From positions 22,407,554-22,471,553 of the forward strand of contig CM020619.1 of assembly GCA_009829735.1 (NCBI GenBank): 64,000 bases of DNA. Reading direction: 5' to 3'. The position numbers and the translations under genes are program-made. Below the pieces are notes generated by a model. It did not search any database. It was given only the letters and a program-made list of their open reading frames with translations, and had not been told where the DNA came from. Shown here in pieces: positions 9,612 through 29,201 of this stretch. The number at the start of each line of letters is the position of its first letter. The first letter of the stretch is position 1. This DNA is from Pyropia yezoensis (lineage: Eukaryota > Rhodophyta > Bangiophyceae > Bangiales > Bangiaceae).

Positions 9612-9615
9612 AATA

Positions 9616-10186
9616 TGTGGTATAAAACTCGATCCTCTCAGACACGTGTCAATATCCCTCGGGGGAAAGGGACAGGTAACACAGAAAGGGGAACTACGAG
9701 AGTGGTATGCCTGTTGCCTCACGTGCCTGCTCGCAGAGCAAACAGATACGCACGGTAGTGCACACGGGGAAGAGGAAAGCAAACGCGCAGTTGTCTTTTT
9801 CCTGAGGGCGCGGGCCAAGGGCGCCTCGCTGTCCCTCTTAACGTGCATCTGGGGGAGCCTCGGCACGTTGGCCAGGTAGCCCCCCCATAACCCCGAGTGG
9901 CCCCGACCCGAGTCTAACCTCGTCAGGTCGGGGGCCACTATCACTACTAATTCTATTCCCACTCACTAATCTCACACTCAAATTCTCTCAAATCAAGTCC
10001 CTCACAAGTATGCAAAAACCCATCAGCAATCCCTCTCTCACGTGTGGACAGCGTAGTCCACCGCATCCCAGTGCCGGGCACGGGCCATGGCCGCCAACCA
10101 TCACCACACGGCGGGCGTGTTCTGGCACCTGGTGCCCTCTGGTTGTAGTCCCGGGTCGGCGCCAAGTCGGGGCCAGGGATGCTACA
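9616..10186 (-). repeat. Element A 5' LTR (right)
   Basis: 571-bp LTR with TG...CA ends, equal in length to 540-1110 and about 99.5% identical by eye. It lies upstream of gag on the minus strand, next to the PBS. Confidence 0.93.
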
Positions 10187-11122
10187 GTACTCAAGGAGGG
10201 GCTGGGCTTCGGGGACTACCCGTACGCCCTGGTGGTGGAACGCGACACTGCGCCTCCCCCGGACAAGGCAGTCTTGCTGGCCGTGCCCGTCCATAATGAC
10301 TACGTGACTCAACCCACTGCGGGGGCCCCGAGTAGGGGTCGCAGTTACTCTCGGACTCCGCGTACTCGGCGAGCTCCTCCGCTTCCTCCTGTCCCATTCC
10401 AGGCGCACGGGGACATCCCGATAAGCGTTGCTGTTGAGACATCCACCCCGGTGTCCCCCAACTTGGGAGCCACCCTCCTCACGGTTCATCCTAAGTTGGT
10501 ACTGCCGGCCACGCCCTTGACCTCCGAGATGATGATCACCACGTTGGTGCGCAACATTTCTTGCTTGGCCGCGTCGGCTGCAACCTTTGAAGTTTCCGAG
10601 ACTCCTCATCTTGAGGACTTCGTTCGTCCTGTGGTGGCGACCGCGAGTTGCGAGTCGGTAGCGGGGTTCATGACGACCGAGTTGGCTCGTATTGGGTCGA
10701 TTGTGCCCCAGCCGGCCCCACTTGGGCGCGGCAAGCGTCGGGCAAGCCGGGCATACTCGCCTCCTCGCCGTCGTCGCCGTCACTCGCGGCGGTCTCCCTC
10801 CGTGTCGGAAGACGAGTTGTCTTATTCCGTCTCGGAGTCCTCTACCCCGTCGGAGACGGAGTCGGTCCGGCGTCTGCGTCGCCAAATTGCGCGCAAGACC
10901 AAGCAGAAGAGTAGCCGCAGTCGTCGCCACTTGCGCGACCGTGAGAGGCGCGACGGTTCCGACTTGGAGCCGCCGCCCCCGCCGACGGGTGGGGAACGTT
11001 ATCGGCGTGGGTCTCGCCGCTCGCCTCCACGTGAGAGCGGGGGCCGTGGTGTTGGGGAGTCTTGCATGCGTGGCTGCTTGGCCGCTGCCTTTGTTGTGAG
11101 AGTGTATCGGTTAGGGCTGTAG
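10187..11122 (+). pseudogene. Element C antisense ORF, downstream fragment
   Basis: Continuation of the antisense ORF interrupted by element A. It matches element B from about 21685 to 22575. The segment with MMITTLVRNISCLAAS is followed by an Arg/Ser-rich domain (RRRRRHSRRSPSVSEDELS and RSRRHLRDRERRDG) like the RS tails of splicing factors. Relative to B, some 355 bp are missing at the junction, and the final stop is displaced so the frame runs 18 residues further. Confidence 0.8.
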
Positions 11123-13001
11123 TTGAAAGCCACTCTGCGTACCACTTCGACTTGAAGCACTCTCTTGGCACTGTCACTTAGCCTTCCCTCACGTTGAGCG
11201 AGGGCAGTTAGGGTGGATATCATTCCGGGCGCAGTATGCCCGGACCCTCTCGGCGGGAAGGTCCTCCACGTATTCCCACGTATCATCCTTAGCTTTATAG
11301 CCGAACCAACGCACCCCCAACATGAGGCGGTTAGTGTCCTCATCCCACCCGTGGTCGATGAACTTATCGAACACGTATTCCTGCGGGCCCTGTTTGGCCG
11401 CAGGTAGCGAAGGCAGGCGCCACGCTTCCAGCGCACGCGCCCAAGCCGGGTTGCCTGCAGGAGGTGGTGCAACTTATACCACGTCCTGTCCGTTTACTGT
11501 GTGGACCCCATCGTCATTTTCGATGGTAAACCGCCGTCCTTCCGTACGAAGGACCTGGTATGGCCCCTTCGTCTGGAATACCAGCTTACCCCCAGTTGGG
11601 GTGTGCGAGTGAGCCAGCACCCAGTCACCCTGCTCGGGGACGTGCTTGGCGTTACGCACCTTTTTGTCAAAAGGACGCTTGTAGCGCTTTTGCGCTTTGT
11701 CCATCTCAGCCCTGACTTTAGGAATGAGTTTTTCGAGCCTAGCAGCGAACTCCGCCTTACTCTCAGTAGGAGTAGGCGTACTGCCACCATCCTCCCTAGT
11801 TGGGAGCGACCGCCGCACGGCAATAGACCGCACGCGACGGGGGGTCACAAAAGCGAGGGGTACTTCCCCTGTAGATGAGTGAACCTGCGAATTGTAGGCA
11901 GTAGTAAGGATAGAAATGTATTGGTCCCACGTCTTCACGTGCTCACTCACATAGTGGCGCAGTTGCCGAACAATAGTTTTGTTGAAGGGCTCCACCTGCC
12001 CATTAGTTTGTGGGTGGTAGGGGGTGGCATAGTTTGCCTTAACCCCCAACATATCCAGCACTCCCTGAAACAGTACAGACGCAAATTGCTGTCCATTGTC
12101 CGACAGTGTACTGTCTGGGATACCATAAGCGGCAACCCAGTGATCTAGGAAGGCTCACACGACCGACATGGCCGTGGTCTCTGCCAGAGGAATCGCTCGC
12201 GTAAGTTTCGTGAAGCGATCACAGATGACCAGGAGGTACTGGTTGCCCTCCTCGGTCACTGGCAGGGGCCGAAGGATATCCATTGCCAACGCGGAAAAGG
12301 GCTCCTTGGCCGGGAACAGTAACATGGCCCTGATAGGCCGCCGTTCCATCAGACGGTTCTGCGCACAACTTGTGCAGGCAGCTACCCAACTATAGATGTC
12401 CACCACCATGGACGGCCAGTGGTAACTGGTCCTCAGGGTCGGGTACAGTTTACTAGACCCCAGGTGTCCACCTGTGGGAGCGTTATGCTCCCTCTCAAGG
12501 ATACTGTCCTTGAGGGATGCGGGGACGACAAGTTGTTCGGTCCGCTGAATTACCCCCCTCCTCAAGAGGAGGCCATCGTCTCCGATGAAGAACCGCGTCT
12601 CCGCCACCGTATCTAGCGTATCCCTCTGCGAATTGCAGAAGGAGTCCTCGGGCTGGGCCTTCACCACCTCGTCCAGGGACAGGGGCAAGTACTTCTTGTT
12701 CCCTGGCGCCTCAGGGTCCAACGCCTGACCCGAGCGCGTGACTACTCCCACGATGGGGATGTCGTCATCGACTGAGCTAGTGTCCGGCCCCTCGGTTGGT
12801 ACCCGAGAAAGGCCGTCGGCTCGGGCATGTTGCCTGCCAGGTCGGTACTCAATATCAAAGTTGAAGGGTGCCAGTCGCACCCTCCACCTGTTCAGGCGTG
12901 TGTTCGTGCAATCCGTCTTAAAGATGAACAGCAACGCGCGGTGGTCACAGGGGATGGCAAAAGGGGGAGTTAACATTGCCACGCCCCCACGCACGCATAC
13001 G

Positions 13002-13145
13002 AGGGCTCTGGGGTCCCATTTCCGATGCCCTATCGTAAATTTCTATATGGGACCCCGGAGCCCTTTTGTTATAGTTGAGGTTTCCTCAACGGGTTTGGGT
13101 ACGTCGTACCCAATCCAGGGGTCTGGGGATGGAAAATCCCCAGCC
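13002..13145. repeat. Cluster of four hairpins beside the Rep fragment
   Basis: Four inverted repeats in a row. The largest has 18-bp arms at 13002-13019 and 13047-13064 (one G-T pair) with a 27-nt loop. It is followed by GTTGAGG/CCTCAAC (3-nt loop), TTGGGTAC/GTACCCAA (3-nt loop, about 13095-13113) and CTGGGGAT/ATCCCCAG (about 13122-13142). The long hairpin could be a rolling-circle origin or a terminator; I see no standard TAATATTAC-type nonanucleotide in its loop. Confidence 0.7.
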
Positions 13146-13150
13146 TTAAA

Positions 13151-13807
13151 CTATTTCTCAACTTTTTTGTAATGAGTAATCCTGTTAAGGATTGTTTCAA
13201 AAGCGTCGAAATCACTAAAGAGAGGTTTCGTAAGCTCTATTTCTCGAACTCTTACTCCAAGAGTTTTAGAGAATAGATCTCGTTTGCTATCTTGATTGAA
13301 TCATTTATCGGAACAATGTTGATCAAGAGGTTGATTGGAGGTCATGATAATGAGAGGATTAACTTCTTTGTATATATGAGATCCATTCATAGGTAACCGC
13401 ATATTTTCTCCAGAAAGGAATCGACTTAAAAAGAACCCTACTCAACCTTTTGAGTAAAGTTCATCTCAAAGAATTCATTGATACGTATTATTTTTATAAT
13501 AATCGAATCAATTGTCGTCGGGTCAAATATACGATGGTGAATTATGATTTAAGAAATGGATAATACTAGTTTTTCCAGTATTAGGTTCTCTACTTCAAAG
13601 ATGGAGCATGGGCATTTTATACTTTCTTTTACCCGCATTATCATTCAAGTATTCAAGAATGTTCACAAGGCCTTCTTTATTGGTCAACACATTGTCACCA
13701 ATATTTTTAATGCTGGCGATATCAAAATATTTTATAGGAACAAGCTTGTCCATACGTAAATTACGTTGATGCTGCTGGAAGTTTTTGCTATATCTTACTA
13801 TCTTACC
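13151..13807 (-). pseudogene. Rep superfamily 3 helicase fragment read with UGA=Trp
   Basis: On the minus strand, 218 codons run without TAA or TAG from the insert edge to a TAG at 13151-13153, but contain seven in-frame TGA. Read as Trp, the protein has superfamily 3 helicase motifs: Walker A-like PNTGKTS, Walker B-like WILWDE and motif C IIMTSN, spaced as in Rep proteins of CRESS-DNA viruses and plasmids. The first Gly of Walker A is replaced (Ser-Arg-Glu-Pro). The N-terminal HUH endonuclease is absent, cut off at the junction. Several TGA positions sit where aromatic residues are expected. With the standard code it is untranslatable in the nucleus. Confidence 0.85.
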
Positions 13808-16012
13808 TTCTCACCCTCTAGGTAGTGTCGAAGTGTCGTCACCGCCCACACCACTGCGAGTCCTTCCAACTCGGTGACTCCGTAGTTCTTCTCGGCCGAG
13901 TTCAGCCCCTTGCCAAAGTATCCCACCGGCAAGTACTCCTTGTCCGGCAGCTGCTGAAGCAACACACAACCAAGTTGGTCGTAGCTAGCATCTACGTCTA
14001 AGATGTACTGGCCTCCCAACCTGGGAATAGCCAAGATGGGGGGCTTCAGCAGAAGGTCCCGAAGAGTCTCAAAGGATTCCTGCTCCACCCGACTTGGGGG
14101 AGGCAGGTTCTTCGGTAGGACCGAGCTAACTAACCAATTCAGCGGCTTCGCCACCTTGGCGAAGCCCTTGGTGAAACTTCGGTACACGTTGCACATCCCG
14201 AGGAAGCTCCTCATCTGGGTCTTGGTCCGGGGGTACTGAGCCTTACGGATGGCTCTCAAGTTCTTCTCGTTGACGCTGAGGCGCCCCGGACGGACAACAT
14301 GTCCCAAGTATTCCACCTCCTGAGTGAAGAGGTGGCACTTGCTCGCCTTCAGTGACACACCGGCGTCAGCAAGTAGCTTGAACACCTGACCAAGATGGCC
14401 AATGTGCTCCTCCGGACTTCGGGAAAACACAATGATATCGTCTAGGTACACAAGACAGATCTGCCACCGTACTCCGGCCAGAATCATGTCCATGGCGCGC
14501 TGGAAGTTGCCGGCGCGTTGCACAATCCAAACGGTAGTCGTTTGCACTGGTAGGTACCACAGTGACAGGGAGATGTAGATTTACTCCTGTCTTCCGGGGC
14601 AATGGGAAATTGCCAATACCCCGCGTTACAGTCTAAGGTAGAGAACACGTTTGCCGCCCCCAGTGAGTCCTGACAGTCGTCCATCCTAGGGAGGGAATAA
14701 CTATCCTTCACCGTGCTCTCGTTGAGCTTACGGTAGTCGGTACAGAACCGTGGGGTCCCATCAACTTTGGGGACAATGACCACCGGGCTCGCCCACTCGG
14801 CGTTGCTGGGCTCAATCACATCGAGGGCCTCCATGCGAGCAACTTGCTCCTTGACGAGGGCCCTTGAACGGGGCCCTCCCCTGTACGATTCTTGGCGTAT
14901 AGGGGGTGCACCGGGTTTTAACTCGATCCGGTGCTCGGTGGCTTTCATGAGTCCCAATTGACCATCCCACAACTTGTGATATTGGTCCAAGAGGCGTTCA
15001 ACTTGAACCCTCAACCTGGGTGGAACATTCTCTATGTTCACGTGGGGTCGAGGAGAGGCGGCCGGCTTGTCAAGGTGCTTCTCCTTTCCAGACTTCGGGT
15101 CGCTACTCGCGCCCGCGTTGAGGGTGACCGCTACTACGGGTCCCTCATGTTTGTCGATGTAGCCAAACTTGGCTCCCGACTTGAAGTACTTGGGCAAAGA
15201 GCTCAGGTTCATCACCTGAACCTTCCACGGGACTCCGGCTTTGGAGTCCATCGTGCCAAGGGCAACATGCACTTGGTGCTTACGAGCAAGACGGGGGTTA
15301 GGGTGCACCAACCCGTTCCCCGTAAAATCAGTTACAACGTCAACGTGCGCCACCGAGTTGGGGGGCAACGTGACTGTACGGGCTAAACGCAGAGAAGCAG
15401 TAAACCCTTCTCTCACGGAGCAAACAGGCTTCGACTGTGAGACTGTCACAGGAGCCACAGACTTTCCCTTACCAAGGATGAGGATGGTCTCCCCATTCAT
15501 CAACTTGACCCGATACTCCGGGCCACAAATCAAAGGCACTTGTGTTACAACATAAGGGGTACCCATAAGCAGGGGTACCGATATATTCTCGACTACTCAA
15601 TAGGTCACGTCGACCTCATGGGTCCCGAACCTAGTTGGTAGGGTCACGGCACCAACGATGGGAAGTACCCCACCATTGATGTCAATCATATGGTCGGCCA
15701 TAGACCTCCAGCGTTGGAGCTTCATCTCCTTGGGTAATAGCGACTTGCGTATCAAAGAGGCTCCTAAACCGGCATCAAGTACGATACGGGCACAACAGGC
15801 ACGGCCGGGGGCCAGTTGCACCCGTCCAGCCACCTGGAAGTTCTCACCCGTCAGCACCGCGATGACCCGACGTGGGTTTACGTTCTTGGGGAGTCCTACC
15901 CGAGGTGGGCGGACTTCCTTAGGTCGCCGCAGTATCCGGCAGGGTTGGTTCGTCCTCTTGACCCACTTGGCGGAGGCTGCCGTTGTGAGCTTCGGACGGC
16001 CAGCTCCAACGG

Positions 16013-17959
16013 TCATTCGTTTCCCGCCGACTTGGCGTCGGAATCCGAGGGCGAAGGGGACGACGACGAGTCCGATGACGACGTGTCCGCCCCTTCCGCC
16101 GAGGGTGTGGTGACCGCAACTACTGGTCGAGGTCCACCCTCGCGGCGTGAACGTACTTCGTTCGTAGCCGACTTCTTTCTCGCATTCTTAACGAGTTGTT
16201 GAATGCGTATATTCAACATAGGGCAATCATATGCCCAGTGTCCATCGGAGCTGCAGCTCCAACACCGATTGTCAGTTCCCGGAGGAGTCTTCTCGACTTT
16301 GGAAGCCGGTGAGGTACCCTGGGAAGTTCCCACGGCAGCTCCTATGTTATCCTTGCGGATTCGGCGTGCCTCTCGTAGCTCTCTGGCCTAGCGCGCCTCT
16401 CCTCGCTCTTGGGCCAACTCGGCCTGACGCTCCTGGCGTTGCTCCTCCCGCAACTTGCTGTAGGCCTCGCCTCTGCGGTGAGCGAACCTGGCCACCCCGG
16501 CTATTGTCGCCCGGGCAGTTTTATGCTCCCGGGTCCCCATACGGACTGACCAATGGAGTCCCTCCACAAACCGACTCTTTACCACAGCTTGTGGATAATG
16601 AAAGCCACAAAGATTATTGAGCTTACGGACCCGCTCCACACATGACAACTCGTCAGCAGTCTCTTCCTGATGAGCTTGCGTATACTCCTCGACTTGAGAA
16701 GCCAACGCTGCTTCATCCACGATAGCTCTCAACAGCCAGTTGACGAGCTCCAAGTAGAACGTCACCTCACCAGCGCCTCCACTTGAGGAACTGGGCATGA
16801 CGGACATGAGTCTTGTCCGTAGGTCGCCCTTGGTAGACTCCTGTAGCATGTAAAAAGCCATGCTTTCACTTATGGCATTGTCTTCACAGGCTTTTGTGAT
16901 ACGACGTAGAAACTCAAAAACACGGAGGGGGGGAGTTCCATCCCACTCCGCTTTGTGCCCAAAAGAGTGAAGTGCATTCATCTTCGCACGGCCCATAGCT
17001 CGGGCCTGAATAGGACCGTACACCACCGACTTGTTGTGGAGGGCGTTGGTCTCACAGTCAAAGATCCTCTGATAGACGGGGTTGGCCACCTGGATCTTGG
17101 GCGGCACATTACGATGAGGGAAAAGCCGCTGAAGCAATGGGGTGAGTTGACCCGCAGTGCCTATCGTCTGCCGCGGCGAGCTTGGTGTAGCCACCGGCGT
17201 TTCCGAGGGGGACTCCCCCGTGAGGGGCGTGCGCCCCACCGAGATTGGTGCGGCTCCCTCGTTGGGGGTCACAGGGGTCGCCCCCTGTTCGGGGCGACCC
17301 GAGATAGGCGTGAGGAGGGATTCCCCCTGGGCCTGCGGGCTCGAAAGCCCCAATCCGATCTGGACATTGAGACCATCTGGCAAACTCGCCACAATCTGAT
17401 TCAGAATAGTATTCGTCATCGTGACCACCAGGTCCGGCAAAGTCTGCCGCAACACATTGGTCGCCTCCCGACGGACAGTTTCCGCGAGGAATGGAATATC
17501 GACTCCAGTTGAGTCTCGGCCTGCCTCCGGGAGTCCACCTGAGGGGCAACCACGATCTTCAGCGGCCTCAACCACGGGCATGGGCGCGAGCCCATCACCG
17601 ACCCACGGAGGTCCGCCGTCCTCCAAAAGCCTACTTGGCGACGGCTCCAATCCAAAGTTGGCTCCAGCCCGAGTGGATTCCGCGGGGACAGTCCTCTCAC
17701 CTTGGAACGTTCCCGTTGAGTGTACCACACGGTGGCCAGACTGCGGCCCACCAACATCAGAAGTGCTACCCGAATGAACTCCCGACTGAGTCGAGGTGGC
17801 CAGTTGCCCGCCCGTACTCCCAAGCCAGCTGGCTTGAGGGACCTCTAGTCCCTCTGCGACCCCAGGTACACCTAATTGTGTCTCACCAGTATTCAAAGGC
17901 ACTTGAGTACGTGCGTCACCCGTGTACTCCCCAGACGACGGGAGGTCCGAACCAGCCAT
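16013..17959 (-). pseudogene. gag: Element C gag, one nonsense codon
   Basis: Counterpart of the element B gag, starting at the same ATG context (MAGSDLPSSGEYTGDA). The reading frame is intact except for an in-frame TAG at 16388-16390, where B has CAG (Gln) in the sequence AR-Q-AREL. Downstream in the same frame are the CCHC knuckle CWSCSSDGHWAYDC and the acidic Ser-rich end finishing AGNE. The end carries the GGGAAAC frameshift heptamer at 16019-16025. Confidence 0.88.
16019..16025 (-). other. Element C -1 frameshift heptamer GGGAAAC
   Basis: Same G GGA AAC GAA TGA arrangement as in element B. The downstream CCGTTG/CAACGG stem is kept; the second stem is weakened by one G-T pair. Confidence 0.75.
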
Positions 17960-18059
17960 GTTCGCTAACGATCCGTATGACACGGTCCAAGTCCACCATT
18001 CCTCTGAGAGAGAGCGCCCCCTACACCCGGGCGCACCCGGAGGTAAAATTTACCTCTGT

Positions 18060-18076
18060 CCCCTGCTGCTCCACCA
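18060..18076 (-). other. Element C primer binding site
   Basis: Minus-strand TGGTGGAGCAGCAGGGG, 2 nt inside the 5' LTR, identical to the site of element A. Confidence 0.6.
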
Positions 18077-18078
18077 AA

Positions 18079-18548
18079 TGTGGCAAAAACCACTCGCACA
18101 CGCTACACCCAAGTTGGGGCGGTGCGCAAGGGCTGCCTCCCGTGTCGGGGGAACCGGAAGAAGTGCAAGTCGCACACACTCTGTCCCTGTTGTGGGGCAA
18201 TCCACCCCACTGACAAACAAGAAGATGGTGCGTGGGCCAACAGTTCCTTGGTCGGGACGGGGAAGCGAGGCCAAGCCCCGCTGTCCCTCCCCTTATCCCC
18301 CCAGGGTCCCCTCAGAATCTCGCCTGTCAGAATCTCCCACCCCAGCCCCTGCCCACCGGGCCACACGAAAATTCGAGACGATAAATGCAGAAAACCCTCA
18401 AATCCACGTTGGGTTTACTACTAAGCTAACTATCCCTAACTTAGGGAATATGGACCCAAATGGAGGGGGAGGAACGGGTCAGGCTAGTGGCCTGCCGCCC
18501 CTTGCATGGCACGTGTTGGCCCACTACCTGGGGGTCAATACTGCCACA
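18079..18548 (-). repeat. Element C 5' LTR
   Basis: 470-bp LTR, TGTGG...GCCACA. It resembles the LTRs of element B but has its own variants (CACTCGCACACGC near the start, CAATCCACCCC in the middle). It is the first of three LTR copies separated by 403-bp spacers. Confidence 0.9.
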
Positions 18549-18951
18549 CTGACGGTGGCGTCTTTCGACAGGCCATGATGGGTTGTCGATGGCTGCTGAC
18601 GTGCGGCCGGCGGACACGGTTAGACAGCGGCTGACTCATCTTGAGTCTGGAAGGTACACCGCGTCATGGCCCACCATACAAGGAATTGATCCATGTTGCC
18701 AGGAGTTGGTTCGGCAGGATCTGTATGGCGAGGTCCTAGACATTATTCTTAGGTAGTAGGCCTGGGAGTAGGGGGAAGTCCATAGACATGTAATTGGTCA
18801 GTGGACTGTTGTTCTTGTTCTTGTCAGGATCGGCCAGAGTTGGGAGAACTGCAATACCTGGATACATTTGGAGATGGAAACAACAACCCAAGTCAACCGT
18901 AGCCTTACCTCCTGCTACCCAACCCGCCCACCCACATGTCAATGACGTAGA
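18549..18951. other. Spacer copy 1: target DNA between elements C and B
   Basis: 403 bp of pre-existing sequence, repeated at 19422-19824. On the plus strand it has a 58-codon ORF starting MAADVRPAD (about 18589) and, at its end, a frame (ending HPHVNDV) that would run on across the element B target site into 29202-29315. No product is recognised. Confidence 0.6.
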
Positions 18952-19421
18952 TGTGGCAAAAACCACTAGCACACACGGCACCCAAATTGGGGCGGTGTGC
19001 TAGGGCTGCCTCCCGTGTCGGGGGAACCGGAAGAAGTGCAAGTCGCACACACTCTGTCCCTGTTGTGGGGCAATCCACCCCACTGACAAACAAGAAGATG
19101 GTGCGTGGGCCAACAGTTCCTTGGTCGGGACGGGAAAGCGAGGCCAAGCCTCGCTGTCCCTCCCCTTATCCCCCCAGGGTCCCCTCAGAATCTCGCCTGT
19201 CAGAATCTCCCACCCCAGCCCCTGCCCACCGGGCCACACGAAAATTCGAGACGATAAATGCAGAAAACCCTCAAATCCACGTTGGGTTTACTACTAAGCT
19301 AACTATCCCTAACTTAGGGAATATGGACCCAAATGGAGGGGGAGGAACGGGTCAGGCTAGTGGCCTGCCGCCCCTTGCATGGCACGTGTTGGCCCCCTAC
19401 CTGGGGGTCAATACTGCCACA
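18952..19421 (-). repeat. Chimeric solo LTR (element B start, element C end)
   Basis: 470-bp LTR. Its first part carries B-type variants (CACTAGCACACACGG, GTGTGCTAGGG) and its later part carries C-type variants (CAATCCACCCCACTGAC, GGTGCGTGGGCC). The switch lies between about 19005 and 19073, where B and C are identical. It has no internal region, and its flanks are GTAGA on the left and CTGAC on the right, each belonging to a different insertion. Confidence 0.88.
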
Positions 19422-19819
19422 CTGACGGTGGCGTCTTTCGACAGGCCATGATGGGTTGTCGATGGCTGCTGACGTGCGGCCGGCGGACACGGTTAGACAG
19501 CGGCTGACTCATCTTGAGTCTGGAAGGTACACCGCGTCATGGCCCACCATACAAGGAATTGATCCATGTTGCCAGGAGTTGGTTCGGCAGGATCTGTATG
19601 GCGAGGTCCTAGACATTATTCTTAGGTAGTAGGCATGGGAGTAGGGGGAAGTCCATAGACATGTAATTGGTCAGTGGAGTATTGTTCTTGTTCTTGTCAG
19701 GATCGGCCAGAGTTGGGAGAACTGCAATACCTGGATACATTTGGAGATGGAAACAACAACCCAAGTCAACCGTAGCCTTACCTCCTGCTACCCAACCCGC
19801 CGACCCACATGTCAATGAC

Positions 19820-19824
19820 GTAGA
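19820..19824. repeat. Element B target site duplication, left copy (GTAGA)
   Basis: GTAGA directly before the left LTR equals GTAGA at 29202-29206 directly after the right LTR. A 5-bp duplication is standard for Ty3/gypsy integrases. Confidence 0.85.
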
Positions 19825-20293
19825 TGTGGCAAAAACCACTAGCACACACGGCACCCAAGTTGGGGCGGTGTGCTAGGGCTGCCTCCCGTGTCGGGGGAAC
19901 CGGAAGAAGTGCAAGTCGCACACACTCTGTCCCTGTTGTGGGGCAAACCCCCCACGGACAAACAAGAGGATGGTGTGTGGTCCAACAGTTTCTTGGTCGG
20001 GACGGGGACGCAGGGCCAAGCCACGCTGTCCCTCCCCTTATCCCCCCAGGGTCCCCTCAGAATCTCGCCACTCAGAATCTCCCACCCCAGCACCTGCCCA
20101 CCGGGCCACACGAAAATTCAAGACGATAAATGCAGAAAACCCTCAAATCCAAGTTGGATTTACTACTAAGCTAACTATCCCTAACTTAGGGAATATGGAC
20201 CCAAATGCAAGGGGAGGAACGGATCAGGCTAGTGGCCTGCCGCCCCTTGCATGGCACGTGTTGCCTCCCTACCTGGGGGTCAATACTGCCACA
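19825..20293 (-). repeat. Element B 3' LTR (left)
   Basis: 469 bp, TGTGGC...GCCACA, paired with 28733-29201. It contains the palindrome TCCCTAACTTAGGGA near its right end. Confidence 0.93.
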
Positions 20294-20308
20294 CTCCCCT
20301 CTCCTCCG
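20294..20308 (-). other. Element B polypurine tract
   Basis: On the minus strand, GGAGGAGAGGGGAG abuts the 3' LTR, so second-strand synthesis would prime here and the antisense ORF is inside the element. Confidence 0.65.
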
Positions 20309-20631: not shown

Positions 20632-22575
20632 ATGGCGACTCCGGGAGTGGAGACGGACTCTCTTGACGAGCGCATGGAGGACACCTCCTACGGTGCAGCA
20701 CCCGCCGGGACTTCCGGCGGGGGCTCCGCGATCGCTCCGGGGGACGGGACTCCCGCGTCACCCGGCTTTGGGTTGACGGCGGGGTCTCCCTCGGAGGCGG
20801 GACAAGTTGTCCCGCGTGAGGCCTTGGGGCGGTGGTTTTACCCCGCTTGGCCTCTCTATGAGGAGGGGCTGACTGTTCTTCGCTGTGGCCGACTTGGCGC
20901 AGCGATGGGCCGGGTATGGGACCGCCTACGGGAGAAGTATCCCCGTAGGGTCAGGTTCCCTGCCGGCTTCAGGACGGACCAGTTTTCCTTCCTGGACGAT
21001 GAGGAGGTTGAGGACGTTCAGCGTGCCAAGGCCATGGTGGACCGCGGGGGAACTATCCCGGGTCCCGGCGACTTGCCGACCTTCACGTGGGACGCTGTGG
21101 CAACTCGCCCACCGTACCTCCACGAGGCCGATCCGCACACTCATCACTTTGATGTGCGGATGGAGAAAGACTTCCGGCGAGGTCCCTACTTGGTGACCTC
21201 GGCTCATCTTGAGTTTCCTCAACAGTCTGCTGCCAGTAAGGAGCAGTACTATCCGAAGAAGCCCGAGTGGTGGCCTCAAGTTGAGGTCCCCTACGGGTTC
21301 CCGGCGTTGTTGCCACGGTTGCTTGACCACTTCGGCTCCGTCATGTTGACGGCTGCCCCTGATCACCTGGTGTGGGCCATGTTGGCCACCCAGTGGCTCC
21401 TCGAGGTCATGTCGACCTGGGTGTCCTGTGTTCAGCGGCGGGGGATGCTCTGGCATCTCCCCCTCCGGCTCCTCCAAGGTTTGGAACAGCTCACCCCTCA
21501 GCTAGTTGCTGAGGGGTGCTCATCAGGACAACTCACTCTACTTGAGGAGATGCTCCGGCTCCATAAGTTTATCGAGTGGGAGAGCATTGAGCACAAGTTG
21601 CGCCGCCCCACTCGTGGGCCCAAGGACGATGGCGCACTTCGCCAGTTCGTGTGGGTCGCTCGTGAACTTCACGACGGCCGTGTGGTCCTACGAGAGGGGT
21701 TGGGCATCGGGGACTACCCGTATGCCCCGGGGGTGTATCGCCACACTGCGCCACCCCCGGACAAGCCCATAGTTATGGCCGTGCCGTCCTATGATGACCA
21801 TATGACTCAACCCACTGCGGGGGCCCCAAGTCGGGGTCGCAGTTATACCCGGGTACCGCCACCTCGGCGTGCCCCTCCGCTTCCTCCTGTTCCTTTCCAG
21901 CCTCACGGGAACATCCCGATCAGCGTGGCCGTGGAGTCTTCCACCCCGGTGTCCCCCAACTTGGGGGCCACCCTCCTGACGGTATACCCCAAGTTGGTGT
22001 TGCCGCCCACGCCTCTAACCTCAGAGATGATGATCACCACGTTGGTGCGCACCATTTCCTGGTTGGCCGCGTCGACCGCAACCCTACAGAGTTCCGAGAC
22101 TCCTCAACTTGAGGAGCGCGCTCGTACTGCAGTGGCGACCGCGAGTTGCGAGTCGGTGGCGGAGTTTATGACAGCCGAGTTGGCTCGCATTGGGGCTATT
22201 ATGCCCCAGCCAGCCCCACTTGGGCGTGGCAAACGTCGCGCGAGCCGGGCATACTCGCCTCCTCGCCGTCGTCGCCGACACTCGCGGCGCTCTCCTTCCG
22301 TATCGGAAGACGAGTTGTCTTACTCCGTTTCGGAGTCCTCTACCCCGTCGGAGACGGAGTCTGTCCAGCGTCTGCGTCGCAAACTTGCGCGCAAGACCAG
22401 GCAGAAGAGTGGCCACGGTCTGCACCACTTGCGCGACCGCGAGGGACGCGACGGTTCCGACTTGGAGCCGCCGCCCCCTCCAACGAGTGGAGACCGTTAT
22501 CGGCGTGGGTCTCGCCGCTCGCCTCCACGTGAGGGCGAGGGCCGTGGAGTGGGAGAGTCTAGCATGCGTGCCTAG
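20632..22575 (+). CDS. Element B antisense ORF, 647 aa, RS-rich C-terminus
   Basis: Intact plus-strand ORF opposite to gag-pol. I chose the ATG at 20632 (MATPGVETDSLDERMEDT), which follows a 9-bp hairpin (CTCTCCCCAACTTGGGGAGAG split by ACT); the frame is open upstream to 20461. Layout: acidic, Gly-rich N-terminus; a folded-looking region (about 60-280: LGRWFYPAWPLY, FDVRMEKDF, YYPKKPEWWPQVEVPYGF, then helices around WAMLATQWLLEVM); a Pro-rich linker (about 380-430); a helical segment (MMITTLVRTISWL); then an Arg/Ser-rich domain (SPPRRRRRHSRRSPSVSE) and a Gly/Arg-rich tail. RS domains occur in splicing and nuclear RNA-binding proteins; any such role here is inference. It stops 111 bp before the pol stop, tail to tail. 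Confidence 0.82.
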   Translation: MATPGVETDSLDERMEDTSYGAAPAGTSGGGSAIAPGDGTPASPGFGLTAGSPSEAGQVVPREALGRWFYPAWPLYEEGLTVLRCGRLGAAMGRVWDRLREKYPRRVRFPAGFRTDQFSFLDDEEVEDVQRAKAMVDRGGTIPGPGDLPTFTWDAVATRPPYLHEADPHTHHFDVRMEKDFRRGPYLVTSAHLEFPQQSAASKEQYYPKKPEWWPQVEVPYGFPALLPRLLDHFGSVMLTAAPDHLVWAMLATQWLLEVMSTWVSCVQRRGMLWHLPLRLLQGLEQLTPQLVAEGCSSGQLTLLEEMLRLHKFIEWESIEHKLRRPTRGPKDDGALRQFVWVARELHDGRVVLREGLGIGDYPYAPGVYRHTAPPPDKPIVMAVPSYDDHMTQPTAGAPSRGRSYTRVPPPRRAPPLPPVPFQPHGNIPISVAVESSTPVSPNLGATLLTVYPKLVLPPTPLTSEMMITTLVRTISWLAASTATLQSSETPQLEERARTAVATASCESVAEFMTAELARIGAIMPQPAPLGRGKRRASRAYSPPRRRRRHSRRSPSVSEDELSYSVSESSTPSETESVQRLRRKLARKTRQKSGHGLHHLRDREGRDGSDLEPPPPPTSGDRYRRGSRRSPPREGEGRGVGESSMRA

Positions 22576-22686
22576 TTGGACGCTGACTTTGTTGTGAGAG
22601 TGTGAGGGTTAGGGCTGTAGTTAAAAGCCACTCTGCGTACCACTTCGACTTGAAGCACTCTCTTGGCACTGTCACTTAGCCTTCCC

Positions 22687-25600
22687 TCACGTTGAGCGAG
22701 GGCAGTTAGGGTGGATATCATTCCGGGCACAGTACGCCCGGACCTTCTCAGCGGGAAGGTCCTCCACATACTCCCACGTATCATCCTTGGCTTTGTAGCC
22801 AAACCAACGCACCCTCAACATGAGGCGGTCAGTGTCTTCATCCCATCCGTGGTCGATGAACTTATCGAACACGTACTCCTGCGGGCCCTGTTTGGCCGCA
22901 GGCAGTGAGGGGAGGCGCCACGCTTCCAAAGCACGCGCCCAAGCTGGGTCGCCTGCAGGCGGTGGTGCAACTTTGACCACGTCCTGTCCGGTCACTGTGC
23001 GGACCCCATCGTCACTTTCGATGGTAAACCGCCGTCCTTCCGTACGAAGGACCTGGTACGGTCCCTTCGTCTGGAATACCAGCTTACCCCCAGTTGGGGT
23101 GTGCGAGTGTACCAGCACCCAGTCACCCTGCTCGGGGACATGTTTAGCATTGCGCACCTTTTTGTCAAAGGTACGCTTGTAGCGCTTTTGTGCTTTGTCC
23201 ATCTCAGCCCTGACTTTAGGGATGAGGTTTTCAAGCCTAGCGGCGAACTCCGCCTTACTCTCAGTAGGAGTAGGCGTCCTGCCACCATCTTCCCTAGTTG
23301 GGAACGACCGCCGCACGGCAATAGACCGCACGCGACGGGGGGTCACAAAAGCGAGGGGTACTTCCCCTGTAGATGAGTGAACCTGCGAATTGTAGGCAGT
23401 AGTAAGGATAGAAATGTATTGGTCCCACGTCTTCACGTGCTCACTCACATAGTGGCGCAGCTGCCTAACAATAGTTTTGTTGAAGCGCTCCACCTGCCCA
23501 TTAGTTTGTGGGTGGTAGGGGGTGGCATAGTTTGCCTTAACCCCCAACATATCCAGCACTCCCTGAAACAGTACAGACGCAAATTGCGGTCCATTGTCCG
23601 ATAGTGTACTATCTGGGATGCCATACGCGGCAACCCAGTGATCTAGGAAGGCTGACACGACCGACATGGCCGTGATCTCTGCCAGTGGGATCGCTCGCGT
23701 AAGTTTCGTGAAGCGGTCACAGATGACCAGGAGGTACTGGTTGCCCTCCTCGGTCACGGGCAGTGGCCCAAGGATGTCCATCGCCAACGCGGCAAAGGGC
23801 TCCTTGCGCGGGAACAATAGCATAGTCGTAGTAGGCCGCCGTTCCATCAGACGATTCTGTGCACAACTTGTGCAGGCAGCCACCCAACTGTAGATGTCCA
23901 CCACCATGGACGGCCAGTAGTACCTGGTCCTCAGGGTCTGGTACAGTTTACTAGACCCCAGGTGTCCACCCGTGGGAGCGGTGTGCTCCCTCTTAAGGAT
24001 ACTGTCCTTGAGGGATGCGGGGACGACAAGTTGTTCGGTCCCCTGGAATACCCCCCTCCTCATGAGGAGGCCATCGTCTCCCAGAAAGAAGCGCGTCTTT
24101 ACCACTGTATCCAGTATATCCCTCTGCGACTTGCAGAAGGGATCCTCGGCCTGGGCCTTCACCACCTCGTCCAGGGACAGGGGCAAGTACTTCTTGTTCC
24201 CTGGCGCCTCGGGGTTCAACGCCTGACCCGAGCGCGTGACTACCCCCACGATGGGGATGTCCTCATCGACTGGGTTAGTGTCCAGCCCCTCGGTAGGTAC
24301 CCGAGAGAGGCCGTCGGCAAGGGCATGTTGCCTGCCAGGTCGGCACTCAATGTCAAAGTTGAAGGGTGCCAGTCGCACCCTCCACCGGTTGAGACGAGTG
24401 TTCGTACAGTCCGTCTTGAAGATGAACTGCAACGCGCGGTGGTCACAGCGGATGAGGAACTTCTCACCCTCTAGGTAGTGACGAAGTGACGTCACCGCCC
24501 ACACCACTGCGAGTCCTTCCAACTCGGTGACTCCGTAGTTCTTCTCGGCCGAGTTCAGCCCCTTACTAAAGTATCCCACCGGCAAGTACTCCTTGTCCGG
24601 CTGCTGCTGAAGCAACACACAACCAAGTTGGTCGTAGCTAGCGTCCACATCCAGGATGTAGTGGCCTCCCAACCTGGGAATAGCCAAGATGGGGGGCTTC
24701 AGCAGAAGGTCCCGAAGAGTCTCAAAGGATTCCTGCTCCACCCGACTTGGGGGAGGCAGGTTCTTCGGTAGCGTTGAGCTCACTAGCTCATTCAACGGCT
24801 TCGCCACCTTGGCGAAGCCCTTGGTGAAACGTCGGTACACGTTACACATCCCGAGGAAGCTCCTCATCTGGGTCTGGGTCCGGGGGTACTGAGCCTTACG
24901 AATGGCCCTCAAGTTCTTCTCGTTAACACTGAGACGCCCCGGATGGACAACATGTCCCAAGTACTCCACCTCTTGAGTGAAGAGGTGGCACTTACTCGCC
25001 TTCAGTGACACACCGGCGTCAGCAAGTAGCTTGAACACCTGGCCAAGATGGCCAATGTGTTCCTCCGGACTTCGGGAGAACACAATGATATCGTCTAGGT
25101 ACACAAGACAGATCTGCCACCGTACTCCGGCCAGAATCATGTCCATAGCGCGCTGGAAAGTTGCCGGCGCGTTACACAGACCAAACGGTAGACGCTTGCA
25201 CTGGTAGGTACCACAGTGACAGGTAAAGGTAGTTTTATGCCTGTCCTCCGGGGCAATGGGAATTTGCCAGTACCCCGCGTTACAGTCCAGGGTAGAGAAC
25301 ACGTTTGCCTCCCCCAGAGAGTCCAGACAGTCATCCATCGTAGGTAGGGGATAACTGTGCTTCACCGTGCTCTCGTTGAGCTTACGGTAGTCGATACAAA
25401 ACCGGGGGGTCTCATCAACTTTGGGGACGATAACCACTGGACTCGCCCACTCGGCGTTGCTGGCCTCGATCACATCGAGGGCCTCCATGCGAGCAACTTG
25501 CTCCTTAACGAGGGCCCTTGAACGAGGTCCTCCCCTATACGGTTGTTGGCGTATAGGGGGTGCACCGGGCTTCAACTCGATCCGGTGTTGGGTGGCTCTC

Positions 25601-26670
25601 ATGAGTCCCAATTGACCATCCCACAACTTGTGACATTGGTCCAAGAGGCGTTCAACTTGAACCCTCAACCTGGGGGGGACACCCTCCATGTTCACATGGG
25701 GTCGAGGAGAGGCGGCCGACTTGGCTTGATGCTTCTCCTTTCCGGACTTCGGGTCGCTACTTGCGCCCGCGTTGAGGGTGACCGCTACTACCGGTCCCTC
25801 GTGTTGGTCGATATAGCCGAACTTGGCTCCCGACTTGAAGTACTTGGGCGTCGGGCTCAGGTTCATCACCTGGATCCTCCACGGGACTCCGGCTTTGGAG
25901 TCCATCGTGCCAAGGGCAACATGCACTTGGTGCTTACGAGCAAGACGGGGGTTAGGGTGCACCAACCCGTTCCCCGTAAAATCAGTTACAACGTCAACGT
26001 GCGCCACCGAGTTGGGGGGCAATGTGACTTTGCGGGCTAAACGCAGGGTAGCAGTAAACCCTTCCCTCACCGAACAAACAGGCTTCGACTGTGAGACTGT
26101 CACAGGAGCCACAGACTTTCCCTTACCAAGGATGGGGATAGTCTCCCCATTCATCAACTTGACCCAGTACTCAGGGCCACAAATCAAAGGCACTTGTGTA
26201 ACAACATAAGGGGTACCCATAAGCAGGGGTACCGATATATTCTCAACTACGCCATAGGTCACGTCGACCTCATGGGTCCCGAACCTAGTTGGTAGGGTCA
26301 CGGCACCAACGATGGGAAGTACCCCACCATTGATGTCAATCATATGGTCGGCCATAGACCTCCAGCGTTGGAGCTTCATCTCCTTGGGTAATAGCGACTT
26401 GCGTATCAAGGAGGCTCCTGACCCGGTATCAAGTACGATACGGGTACAGCATGCACGGCCGGGGGCAAGTTGCACCCGTCTAGCCACCTGGAAGTTCTCA
26501 CCCGTCAGCACCGCGATGACCCGACGTGGGTTTACGTTCTTGGGGAGTCCTACCCGAGGTGGGCGGACTCCCTTAGGTCGCCGCAGTATCCGGCACGGTT
26601 GGTTCGTCCTCCTGGCCCACTTGGCCGAGGCTGCCGTTGTGAGCTTCGGACGGCCAGCCCCAACGGTCAT
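22687..26670 (-). CDS. pol: Element B pol, 1327 aa: protease, RT, RNase H, integrase, chromodomain
   Basis: Uninterrupted Ty3/gypsy pol. Aspartic protease DTGSGAS is at residue 81. The reverse transcriptase has YLDDIIVF at 524, and RNase H has DVDASYDQLG near 672 and PGRQHALADGLSR. The integrase has an HHCC finger (about 870-920, ending CTSCAQNRL) and the DDE core (AMDILGPLP about 963, SDNGPQFAS about 1022, HPQTNGQVERFN about 1058). A C-terminal chromodomain (VFDKFIDHGWDE, LRVRWFGY, DDTWEYVEDLP, about 1262-1318) would bind histone marks and guide insertion. The first ATG overlaps the gag stop (ATGA) in the -1 frame; expression is more likely as a gag-pol fusion through the GGGAAAC heptamer. 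Confidence 0.95.
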   Translation of the reverse strand: MTVGAGRPKLTTAASAKWARRTNQPCRILRRPKGVRPPRVGLPKNVNPRRVIAVLTGENFQVARRVQLAPGRACCTRIVLDTGSGASLIRKSLLPKEMKLQRWRSMADHMIDINGGVLPIVGAVTLPTRFGTHEVDVTYGVVENISVPLLMGTPYVVTQVPLICGPEYWVKLMNGETIPILGKGKSVAPVTVSQSKPVCSVREGFTATLRLARKVTLPPNSVAHVDVVTDFTGNGLVHPNPRLARKHQVHVALGTMDSKAGVPWRIQVMNLSPTPKYFKSGAKFGYIDQHEGPVVAVTLNAGASSDPKSGKEKHQAKSAASPRPHVNMEGVPPRLRVQVERLLDQCHKLWDGQLGLMRATQHRIELKPGAPPIRQQPYRGGPRSRALVKEQVARMEALDVIEASNAEWASPVVIVPKVDETPRFCIDYRKLNESTVKHSYPLPTMDDCLDSLGEANVFSTLDCNAGYWQIPIAPEDRHKTTFTCHCGTYQCKRLPFGLCNAPATFQRAMDMILAGVRWQICLVYLDDIIVFSRSPEEHIGHLGQVFKLLADAGVSLKASKCHLFTQEVEYLGHVVHPGRLSVNEKNLRAIRKAQYPRTQTQMRSFLGMCNVYRRFTKGFAKVAKPLNELVSSTLPKNLPPPSRVEQESFETLRDLLLKPPILAIPRLGGHYILDVDASYDQLGCVLLQQQPDKEYLPVGYFSKGLNSAEKNYGVTELEGLAVVWAVTSLRHYLEGEKFLIRCDHRALQFIFKTDCTNTRLNRWRVRLAPFNFDIECRPGRQHALADGLSRVPTEGLDTNPVDEDIPIVGVVTRSGQALNPEAPGNKKYLPLSLDEVVKAQAEDPFCKSQRDILDTVVKTRFFLGDDGLLMRRGVFQGTEQLVVPASLKDSILKREHTAPTGGHLGSSKLYQTLRTRYYWPSMVVDIYSWVAACTSCAQNRLMERRPTTTMLLFPRKEPFAALAMDILGPLPVTEEGNQYLLVICDRFTKLTRAIPLAEITAMSVVSAFLDHWVAAYGIPDSTLSDNGPQFASVLFQGVLDMLGVKANYATPYHPQTNGQVERFNKTIVRQLRHYVSEHVKTWDQYISILTTAYNSQVHSSTGEVPLAFVTPRRVRSIAVRRSFPTREDGGRTPTPTESKAEFAARLENLIPKVRAEMDKAQKRYKRTFDKKVRNAKHVPEQGDWVLVHSHTPTGGKLVFQTKGPYQVLRTEGRRFTIESDDGVRTVTGQDVVKVAPPPAGDPAWARALEAWRLPSLPAAKQGPQEYVFDKFIDHGWDEDTDRLMLRVRWFGYKAKDDTWEYVEDLPAEKVRAYCARNDIHPNCPRST

Positions 26671-26679
26671 TCGTTTCCC
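26612..26679 (-). other. Element B -1 frameshift site: GGGAAAC heptamer plus predicted H-type pseudoknot
   Basis: The heptamer is at 26673-26679 on the minus strand, in phase G GGA AAC GAA TGA. After a 6-nt spacer comes CCGTTG (26661-26666), which pairs with CAACGG (26634-26639). CTGGCC in its loop (26652-26657) pairs with GGCCAG downstream (26612-26617). Spacing and topology match known -1 frameshift pseudoknots. Both stems are 6 bp, read by eye. Confidence 0.7.
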
Positions 26680-28613
26680 GCCGACTTGGCGTCCGAATCT
26701 GAGGGCGGGGAGGAAGACGACGAGTCCGAGGACGACGTGTCCGCCTCCTCCGCCGAGGGTGTGGCGACCGCAACGACAGGTCGAGACCCACCCTCGCGGC
26801 GTGAACGTACTTCGTTCGTAGCCGACTTTTTACTCGCATTCCTAACAAGTTGTTGGATGCGTTTACTCAACTTGGGGCAATCATATGCCCAGTGACCATC
26901 GGAGTTGCAGTTCCAACACCGATGGTCCGTTCCGGGAGGGGTCTTCCCAACTGGGGAAGACGAAGGGATACCCTGGGAAGTTCCCACGGCAGCTACCACC
27001 CTCTCCTTGCGGATTCGGCGTGCCTCTCTCAACTCTCTGGCCTGGCGTGCCTCCTCCCGTTCCTTGGCCAACTCGGCCTGACGCTCCTGGCGTTGCTCCT
27101 CCCGCAACTTGCGGTAGGCCTCGCCTCCGCGATAGGCGAACCTGGCCAACTCGGCCAGGGTCGCCCGGGCAGTGTTATGCTCCCGGGTCGCCATCCGGAC
27201 TGACCAATGGAGTCCCTCCACAAATCGACTCTTCACCACAGCTTGTGGATGAAGAAATCCACAAAGATTGTTGAGCTTACGGACCCGCTCCACACATGAC
27301 AACTCGTCAGCAGTCTCTTCCTGATGAGCTTGCGTATACTCCTCGACTTGAGAAGCCAACGCTGCCTCATCAACCATGGCTCTCAACAACCAGTTGACGA
27401 GCTCCAAATAGGACGTCACCTCCCCAGCGCCTCCACTTGAGGAGCTGGGCATGACGGACATAAATTCTGTCCGTAGGTCGCCCTTCGTAAACTCCTGTAG
27501 CATGTAAAAAGCCATGCTTTCACTTATGGCATTGTCGTCACAGGCTTTTGTGAAACGACGTAGGAACTCAAAGACACGGAGGGGGGGAGTTCCGTCCCAC
27601 TCCGCTTTGTGCCCAAAAGAATGAAGTGCATTCATCTTCGCACGGCCCATAGCTCGGGCCTGGTCAGGACCATACGCCACCGACTTGTTGTGGAGGGCGT
27701 AGGTCTCACAGTCAAAGATCCGCTGGTAGACCGGGTTGGCTACCTGGATCTTGGGCGGCACCTCACGTTGAGGGAACAGCCGTTGTGGCACTGGGGTAAG
27801 CTCACCCTCAGTGCCTGTAGTCCGGCGCGGCGCGCTTGGTGTAGCCGCCGGCGTTTCCGGGGGGAACTCCCCCGTGAAGGGCGTACGCCCCACCGAGTAT
27901 GGTGTGGCTCCCTCGTTGGGAGTCACAGGTGTCGCCCCCAGTTCGGGGCGACCAGAGATAGGCGTAAGGTCGGATTCCCCCTGCGCCTGCGGGCTCGAAA
28001 GCCCCAATCCGGTTTGGACATTAAGGCCATCTGGCAAACTCGCCACAATCTGATTCAGAATAGTATTCGTCATCGTGACCACCAGGTCCGGCAAAGTCTG
28101 CCGCAACACATTGGTCGCCTCCCGACGGACAGTTTCCGCGAGGAGTGGATTGACGACTCCAGTTGAGTCTCGGTCCGCCGCCGGGAGTCCACCTGAGGGG
28201 TAACCACGTTCCTCAGGGGTCTCAACCGGGGGCATGGGCGCGAGCCCATCGCCGACCAACGGAGGTCCACCGTCCTCCGAAAGCCAACTTGGCGACGGCT
28301 CCAAGCCAAAGTTGGCTCCAACCCGAGTGGAACCCGCGGGGACAGTCCTCACCCCTTGGGACGTTCCCGTTGAGTATACCACACGGTCGCCAGACTTCGG
28401 CCCACCCACATCAGAAGTGTCACCCGAGTGAACTCCCGACTGAGTCGGGGTGGCCTGTTGCCCGCCCATACTTCCAGTCCTGCTGGCTTGAGGGACCTCT
28501 AGTTCCTCTGCGACCCCAGGTAAACCCACCTGTGTCTCACCAGTATTCAAAGGCACTGAAGTACGTGCGTCACCCGTGTACTCCCCGGACGACGGGAGGT
28601 CCGAACCAGCCAT
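26667..28613 (-). CDS. gag: Element B gag, 648 aa
   Basis: Retrotransposon structural protein. The ATG at 28613 (MAGSDLPSSGEYTGDA) is the first true ATG; the frame is open a few codons upstream. Domains: a long Pro/Gly/Ser-rich N-terminus (1-280) with an amphipathic stretch (VRREATNVLRQTLPDLVVTM), a capsid-like helical region (about 290-470: GRAKMNALHSFGHKAEWDG, AFYMLQEFTKGDLRTEF, SYLELVNWLLRAM), a Glu/Arg-rich coiled coil (EEQRQERQAELAKEREEARQ), one CCHC knuckle CWNCNSDGHWAYDC, and an acidic Ser-rich end finishing SAGNE. The frame is intact throughout. Confidence 0.92.
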   Translation of the reverse strand: MAGSDLPSSGEYTGDARTSVPLNTGETQVGLPGVAEELEVPQASRTGSMGGQQATPTQSGVHSGDTSDVGGPKSGDRVVYSTGTSQGVRTVPAGSTRVGANFGLEPSPSWLSEDGGPPLVGDGLAPMPPVETPEERGYPSGGLPAADRDSTGVVNPLLAETVRREATNVLRQTLPDLVVTMTNTILNQIVASLPDGLNVQTGLGLSSPQAQGESDLTPISGRPELGATPVTPNEGATPYSVGRTPFTGEFPPETPAATPSAPRRTTGTEGELTPVPQRLFPQREVPPKIQVANPVYQRIFDCETYALHNKSVAYGPDQARAMGRAKMNALHSFGHKAEWDGTPPLRVFEFLRRFTKACDDNAISESMAFYMLQEFTKGDLRTEFMSVMPSSSSGGAGEVTSYLELVNWLLRAMVDEAALASQVEEYTQAHQEETADELSCVERVRKLNNLCGFLHPQAVVKSRFVEGLHWSVRMATREHNTARATLAELARFAYRGGEAYRKLREEQRQERQAELAKEREEARQARELREARRIRKERVVAAVGTSQGIPSSSPVGKTPPGTDHRCWNCNSDGHWAYDCPKLSKRIQQLVRNASKKSATNEVRSRREGGSRPVVAVATPSAEEADTSSSDSSSSSPPSDSDAKSAGNE

Positions 28614-28712
28614 GTTCGCTAACGATCCGTATGACACGGTCCAAGTCCACCATTCCTCTGAGACAGAGCGCCCCCTACACCCGGGTGCACCCGGAGGTAA
28701 AGTTTACCTCTG

Positions 28713-28730
28713 TCTCCTGCTGCTCCACCA
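28713..28730 (-). other. Element B primer binding site
   Basis: Minus-strand TGGTGGAGCAGCAGGAGA, 2 nt inside the 5' LTR. It has one difference from the site of A, C and D. Confidence 0.6.
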
Positions 28731-28732
28731 AA

Positions 28733-29201
28733 TGTGGCAAAAACCACTAGCACACACGGCACCCAAGTTGGGGCGGTGTGCTAGGGCTGCCTTCCGTGTC
28801 GGGGGAACCGGAAGAAGTGCAAGTCGCACACACTCTGTCCCTGTTGTGGGGCAAATCCCCCACGGACAAACAAGAGGATGGTGTGTGGTCCAACAGTTTC
28901 TTGGTCGGGACGGGGACGCAGGGCCAAGCCCCGCTGTCCCTCCCCTTATCCCCCCAGGGTCCACTCAGAATCTCGCCACACAGAATCTCCCACCCCAGCA
29001 CCTGCCCACCGGGCCACACGAAAATTCAAGACGATAAATGCAGAAAACCCTCAAATCCAAGTTGGATTTACTACTAAGCTAACTATCCCTAACTTAGGGA
29101 ATATGGACCCAAATGCAGGGGGAGGAACGGATCAGGCTAGTGGCCTGCCGCCCCTTGCATGGCACGTGTTGCCTCCCTACCTGGGGGTCAATACTGCCAC
29201 A
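28733..29201 (-). repeat. Element B 5' LTR (right)
   Basis: 469 bp, TGTGGC...GCCACA, equal in length to the left LTR. It is followed by the GTAGA target duplication at 29202-29206. Confidence 0.93.

Follow-up and report, generated by a model that had tools for sequence, protein, structure and literature searches.

A nuclear retrotransposon of Pyropia yezoensis is interrupted by DNA that appears to encode part of a replication protein (Rep), provided that TGA is translated as Trp. This raises the question of what kind of molecule the DNA came from, and how it reached the nucleus. The locus lies in the 64,000-nucleotide stretch analysed here, referred to as the window (contig C2, positions 22407554–22471553), and the genome searched comprises 107,475,971 bases in 11 contigs.

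A foreign insert replaces five bases of a nuclear retrotransposon

The interrupted element and the insert occupy the following positions of the window.

10196–18548, minus strand: host retrotransposon copy interrupted by the insert; its two parts, 10196–12956 and 13807–18548, match the copy at 21694–29201 with 90.6% and 92.3% identity, respectively
12957–13806, minus strand: foreign insert replacing TTCCT, delimited by alignment to 11 of 11 empty element copies

The host retrotransposon is a high-copy element; from 1,274 candidate copies, 40 were scored and 12 were fetched, the copy in the window being one of the 12. All 11 other fetched copies, including the other window copy, whose empty site lies at 24454/24460, have the uninterrupted site GAGAAG-TTCCT-CATCC, whereas the interrupted copy has 850 bp of foreign DNA in place of the 5 bp TTCCT. 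The first-pass annotation had given the insert as 851 bp, 12957–13807, which is right to one base: base 13807 aligns to the retrotransposon, and the insert thus ends at 13806.

The complete insert occurs once in the genome and the 11 other fetched element copies are empty, indicating that the insert arrived after this element copy had inserted, as the annotation had proposed. No target-site duplication flanks it. The absence of a duplication, the 5-bp loss and the single full copy are features of nuclear insertions of the non-homologous end-joining type, suggesting that the insert arrived by something like end-joining repair.

Other repeats were seen around the host element. A tandem duplication of 1,346 bp (18078–19423 and 18951–20295, 97.2% identity) lies at its end; the duplicated region, 18078–20295, contains a 470-bp block that is repeated at 28732–29201 and has an LTR-like look. 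A 572-bp repeat pair (9615–10186 and 539–1110, 99.5% identity) adjoins the retrotransposon, and its members are possibly the LTRs of a young element.

The insert is open for 218 codons when TGA is read as Trp

The reading frame and its motifs, which were read in the translation and aligned with relatives, are as follows.

13151–13807, minus strand: C-terminal part of a putative geminivirus-type (CRESS) Rep, consisting of a linker and a superfamily 3 (SF3) helicase; 218 codons with TGA as Trp, terminal TAG
13565–13588, minus strand: EPNTGKTS, residues 74–81, presumably the Walker A region
13460–13483, minus strand: YQWILWDE, residues 109–116, with two TGA codons inside, presumably the Walker B region
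13331–13360, minus strand: NPLIIMTSNQ, residues 150–159, presumably the motif C/sensor 1 region

From 13807 down to 13151, the minus-strand frame contains seven TGA codons, no TGG, no TAA, and no in-frame TAG before the terminal one, in agreement with the earlier description of a frame broken by TGA alone. With only TAA and TAG counted as stops, the longest open stretch in 2,000 mononucleotide shuffles of the frame averaged 79 codons and reached at most 206, compared to 218 observed; this control for open length is weak, because the stretch had been picked for being open. The three motifs follow one another in the order expected for an SF3 helicase, as also noted at first pass (PNTGKTS, WILWDE, IIMTSN), and the predicted model has the SF3 fold. 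The N-terminal HUH nuclease domain is absent from the insert, which begins downstream of that domain.

Relatives and predicted fold point to a geminivirus-type Rep

The TGA=Trp translation of the frame (P0001; the other P-numbers denote database proteins) was compared with 5.8 billion proteins. Of 126 candidates at E ≤ 10, seven were relatives, P0002–P0008, and each of these scored 3.6e-30 or better. The best was P0002 (1.3e-61); P0003 (4.9e-50) has a Gemini_AL1 domain. P0006–P0008 are 88% identical to P0001 over 32% of the query. A profile search yielded 25 proteins at E ≤ 1e-5 among 5,906 candidates, and a search with P0008 yielded eight, P0008 itself counted. Gemini_AL1 scored above its cut-off in P0003, P0008, P0012, P0013, and P0030–P0034, and below it in P0004 and P0005. 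The family profile matched the nuclease structure of a geminivirus Rep (1l2m) at 1.7e-13, as well as the Rep helicases of redondovirus and AAV.

The structure predicted for the fragment from 27 aligned rows has a pLDDT of 93.4 and a pTM of 0.89. Among the best 50 PDB structure matches listed, the leading ones were helicases of AAV, Vientovirus (a redondovirus), parvovirus B19, papillomavirus, and circovirus, with TM-scores of 0.37–0.52 by query length, and in a viral structure library CRESS Reps matched the model at up to 0.71.

The fragment by itself gave little: the only match in Pfam was Parvo_NS1, at E = 0.02 and below its cut-off, the only one in PHROGs was a weak unknown family at 0.043, and a PDB sequence search returned chance-level matches only. 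NCBIfam, too, yielded nothing but weak matches far under cut-off. The code-4 translation, which the first-pass annotation had proposed to compare with protein databases and Pfam, has close protein relatives but no Pfam assignment above cut-off of its own, Gemini_AL1 being carried by several of the relatives. No relative was found in the phage collection searched with P0003, none was confirmed in IMG/VR scans with exact peptide patterns, and the plasmid collection contained no match to P0001. Because several relatives carry Gemini_AL1 and both the family profile and the predicted fold match viral Reps, the fragment is assigned, on relatives and prediction, to a geminivirus-type Rep, of which it would represent the linker and the SF3 helicase. 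The initial identification of an SF3 helicase of Rep thus held.

PF00910 (Pfam RNA_helicase) was detected at two places in the whole genome, L001 and L002. The place L002 (1–2577; C2 about 16698871–16701447) was rejected as a Rep: its open frame contains GGPGVGKS and GDFPQLGPL, which we take to be motifs of a Pif1/Helitron-type helicase. Among the relatives, the nuclease part of P0016–P0018 lacks the HxH and Tyr found at the same columns in other relatives; these columns are presumably nuclease motifs, and the three proteins are perhaps helicase-only Reps. P0007, identical to P0008 over 145 common residues, lies on a contig of 1877 bp that is recorded as Undibacterium fentianense, a bacterium; this label may reflect contamination or another, unexpected host.

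TGA columns are occupied by Trp in close relatives

In an alignment for which TGA had been masked as X, P0002 has Trp at all seven TGA columns, compared to 2 of the 175 other aligned columns; a hypergeometric count for this 7/7 in the unmasked alignment gives 2.9e-11. Trp occupies five of the seven columns in P0003, P0012, P0013, and P0016–P0018, and just one or two in the distant relatives P0020–P0029. Over the 24 relatives reaching these columns, Trp fills 79 of 168 TGA-column cells. Two other codons also fit translation table 4: in 13 chosen relatives, 30 of 39 cells opposite AGA contain Arg, and 22 of 38 opposite ATA contain Ile.

The ends of several database proteins point the same way. 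P0008 and P0030–P0034, the latter 49–70% identical to P0008, all stop in MLH followed by V, L, or I, the next column being that of the first TGA-coded Trp. To judge from these protein ends, their genes would have a TGA after MLH[VLI]. P0006 and P0007 stop at the same point as P0008 and are identical to it where they overlap, and P0035 is a shorter piece that ends before the first TGA column. A tree of 31 rows, built without P0006, P0007, P0019, and P0035, places the insert sequence as sister to P0008 inside a clade of eight (the insert sequence, P0002, P0008, and P0030–P0034) with support 100/99. The proposal that UGA is read as Trp is supported by the Trp columns of P0002 and also by the six other Reps whose ends fall at the first such column.

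TGA=Trp is used in all seven red algal mitochondrial genomes compared in the available part of PMC3386957, in line with the annotation, and the standard code is applied to mitochondria of cyanidiophyte red algae in that of PMC7487498. With seven TGA, no TGG, and Trp at 7/7 columns in P0002, the gene in the insert is readable with the red algal mitochondrial code and unreadable in the standard code. A COX1 search of the assembly gave no match and no mitochondrial contig.

The non-coding part of the insert is rich in hairpins

The remainder of the insert contains the following features.

12957–13150, minus strand: part of the insert beyond the stop codon, non-coding; 54% GC by composition count
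13002–13019 and 13047–13064, minus strand: hairpin arms, 18 nt, 94%, 27-nt loop
13074–13080 and 13084–13090, minus strand: hairpin arms, 7 nt, 100%
13092–13103 and 13105–13116, minus strand: hairpin arms, 12 nt, 92%
13123–13130 and 13136–13143, minus strand: hairpin arms, 8 nt, 100%

The GC content of this part differs from that of the reading frame (54% versus 33%). The four successive hairpins (13002–13143) are 4 of the 23 inverted pairs listed for 12900–13850. Folded as single-stranded DNA, 12957–13160 reaches −49.6 kcal/mol, compared to −27.5 (sd 3.3) in shuffles (z = −6.7), and none of 200 shuffles was as stable. Elsewhere in the genome, the arm of the largest hairpin is matched once, on contig C3 with one mismatch. 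Another stem and 24 bases close to the border have no further genomic match at up to one and two mismatches, respectively, and pattern searches of parts of 12957–13150 found no further perfect genomic copy. These results suggest that 12957–13150 is probably part of a replicon control region. The loop of the largest hairpin contains TTTAC on the minus strand; this candidate for a geminivirus-like nick site was dropped, because the motif would often occur by chance.

A second fragment lies in another repeat on C1

A genome search with the insert returned an 88% match over 144 bases at C1:32502290–32502434. The fragment there measures 244 bp (L006 1401–1644; C1 about 32502190–32502433) and lies inside another repeat. 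With P0008 as a guide, kinship was found at residues 130–147 and 143–208 in two frames, indicating a frame break. Among the five fetched relatives of the flanks, L023, L024, and L025 align without interruption, within one base, where L006 has 244 extra bases, and the borders against L023 and L025 were also read letter by letter; L026 and L027 gave no alignment across the site. In these three of five flank relatives, the C1 copy is seen to join its repeat cleanly, with no loss of repeat sequence.

The window and C1 copies differ at 17 of 149 bases. Mismatches by codon position are 7/50, 3/49, and 7/50 (Fisher p = 0.59), and since the nuclear copies compared show no codon-position bias, there is no sign of past selection. 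The C1 copy extends further upstream and sits in another repeat, which argues for two separate insertions.

Origin of the insert

The best explanation of these results, at a probability of roughly 0.78, is that the insert represents a fossil, preserved in the nucleus, of a small Rep replicon which decoded UGA as Trp and was most likely mitochondrial, and that its DNA entered the nucleus in two repair-type insertions. The source would be a small extrachromosomal replicon whose recognised gene is a geminivirus-type Rep, with an HUH nicking nuclease followed by an SF3 helicase. This Rep would be translated inside mitochondria with UGA as Trp. Mitochondrial residence is considered most likely because the gene reads UGA as Trp, like red algal mitochondria. 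There, Rep would nick and unwind a presumably circular molecule for rolling-circle copying. Replicon DNA would have reached the nucleus at least twice and been used as filler in the repair of double-strand breaks, presumably by end joining; in this process the window copy would have taken the place of 5 bp of the retrotransposon, and the C1 copy would have entered the other repeat without loss.

A broader proposal, held less firmly and somewhat favoured, is that mitochondria are home to a clade of CRESS replicons, about 1.6–1.9 kb long, which lack a capsid gene and carry only a Rep, adapted to the mitochondrial code, so that geminivirus-type machinery would work in an organelle and seed the nucleus repeatedly. 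The longest contigs of P0007, P0008, and P0030–P0034 are 1,611–1,877 bp, and those of P0006 and P0035 are 1,117 and 628 bp. A Rep of about 380–395 residues needs about 1.15–1.2 kb of the 1.6–1.9 kb contigs, leaving little space for a capsid gene, which the replicon would presumably lack. The contig band of 1.6–1.9 kb is only suggestive of a circular genome. Such a clade would be hidden from standard gene callers, because its Reps are cut at the first UGA.

The seven TGA codons might instead have arisen from TGG by G-to-A decay of a nuclear copy. The insert does contain a dead copy in the nucleus, and a drift towards A+T is a common form of decay; yet all seven Trp codons are TGA, with no TAA, no early TAG, and no frame break in 218 codons, and six further database Reps break at the first TGA column, making decay highly improbable. 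The position of that break in P0008 and P0030–P0034, between nuclease and helicase, would also fit a single leaky or recoded UGA stop that gives a short and a long Rep under an unchanged code. This can be given almost no weight in view of the six more in-frame TGA codons within the window helicase, each opposite Trp in P0002. It is likewise very unlikely that the insert is an assembly chimera, absent from this place in the living genome: the available part of PMC7423979 describes an assembly built from PacBio reads, Hi-C, and BioNano, a second, diverged copy with clean borders exists elsewhere, and over the 70 residues that the insert has in common with P0008, the two differ by 12%.

Two further alternatives concern the source. 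The insert could be a NUMT with a plasmid-derived ORF, copied from a Rep gene that already formed part of the mitochondrial DNA. This gains some plausibility from the Rep-like ORFs described in Phytophthora mtDNA (PMC3198968) and from the ORFs of plasmid origin described in the organelle DNA of red algae (PMC4814812), but the narrow contig band of 1,611–1,877 bp would suit complete small molecules more than fragments of mtDNA, and the alternative is considered unlikely. About as little credit goes to a replicon from a different UGA=Trp system, which could be a Mycoplasma-like bacterium or the mitochondria of some associate of the alga, fungal or otherwise. Gemini_AL1-type Reps do occur on phytoplasma plasmids (15 records), and the P0007 contig is filed under a bacterium. 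However, no relative was found in genome contigs of 84,980 prokaryote species searched with exact peptide patterns (contigs of at least 3 kb), and two separate insertions into the algal nucleus call for a resident rather than a passer-by. On balance, a small UGA=Trp replicon resident in the mitochondria of the alga remains the preferred source.

Comparison with known systems

Phytoplasma plasmids, the 15 records matched by P0003 in the plasmid collection, encode Reps whose N-terminal nuclease is 33–40% identical to that of P0003. In contrast to the present family, they are bacterial plasmids of 3.4–5.1 kb, the matches cover only 18–36% of P0003, and P0001 has no match among them. The Geminiviridae and other CRESS-DNA viruses share the HUH nuclease, which is found in relatives of the fragment, and the SF3 helicase fold, which is predicted for the fragment itself; they differ in that the fragment family reads UGA as Trp, the contigs of its relatives are mostly below 2 kb, and a capsid gene was not seen in the parts of the replicon that are preserved in the nucleus. 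The Ulva plasmid pUme (PMC9389341) is also a circular mitochondrial seaweed plasmid that integrates into other DNA, but at 5.36 kb it carries an RNA polymerase gene, and the available part of the paper does not mention a Rep helicase. The terms "geminivirus", "CRESS", and "Rep protein" do not occur in the text of PMC11528492.

The mitochondrial genomes of Phytophthora sojae and P. infestans contain a Gemini_AL1-type Rep ORF in a mitochondrial setting. As far as the accessible part of PMC3198968 goes, this ORF is described as truncated and as lying within an oomycete mitochondrial genome, with no mention of a UGA reading. Its authors place it nearest to the plasmid Reps of Porphyra tenera and propose an integrated plasmid, which by analogy hints at a mitochondrial setting for the red algal replicons as well.

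In Porphyra/Pyropia tenera and P. pulchra, red algae of the same genus group as the present host, plasmids have been described (PMC4814812 and PMC6668415, as far as available) that encode a geminivirus-type Rep regarded as viral in origin and that are extrachromosomal DNA found integrated elsewhere. The terms "genetic code" and "UGA" are absent from the available text of PMC4814812, which states that the nuclear data of the time did not suffice for a judgement on plasmid integration in the nucleus. Geminivirus-like red algal plasmids were thus known before; as far as was found in the open-licence literature surveyed, UGA=Trp in such Reps and the nuclear copies described here are unreported.

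The home of these plasmids is unsettled in the literature surveyed, and a Rep that can be read only with UGA as Trp points to mitochondrial rather than cytosolic translation. If this is true, rolling-circle replicons of the CRESS type have colonised an organelle. Databases have a blind spot for them, the Reps of the P0008 clade appearing as proteins cut at the first UGA. The two nuclear copies in P. yezoensis would record both the past residence of such a replicon in the algal lineage and the flow of a mobile element into the nucleus.
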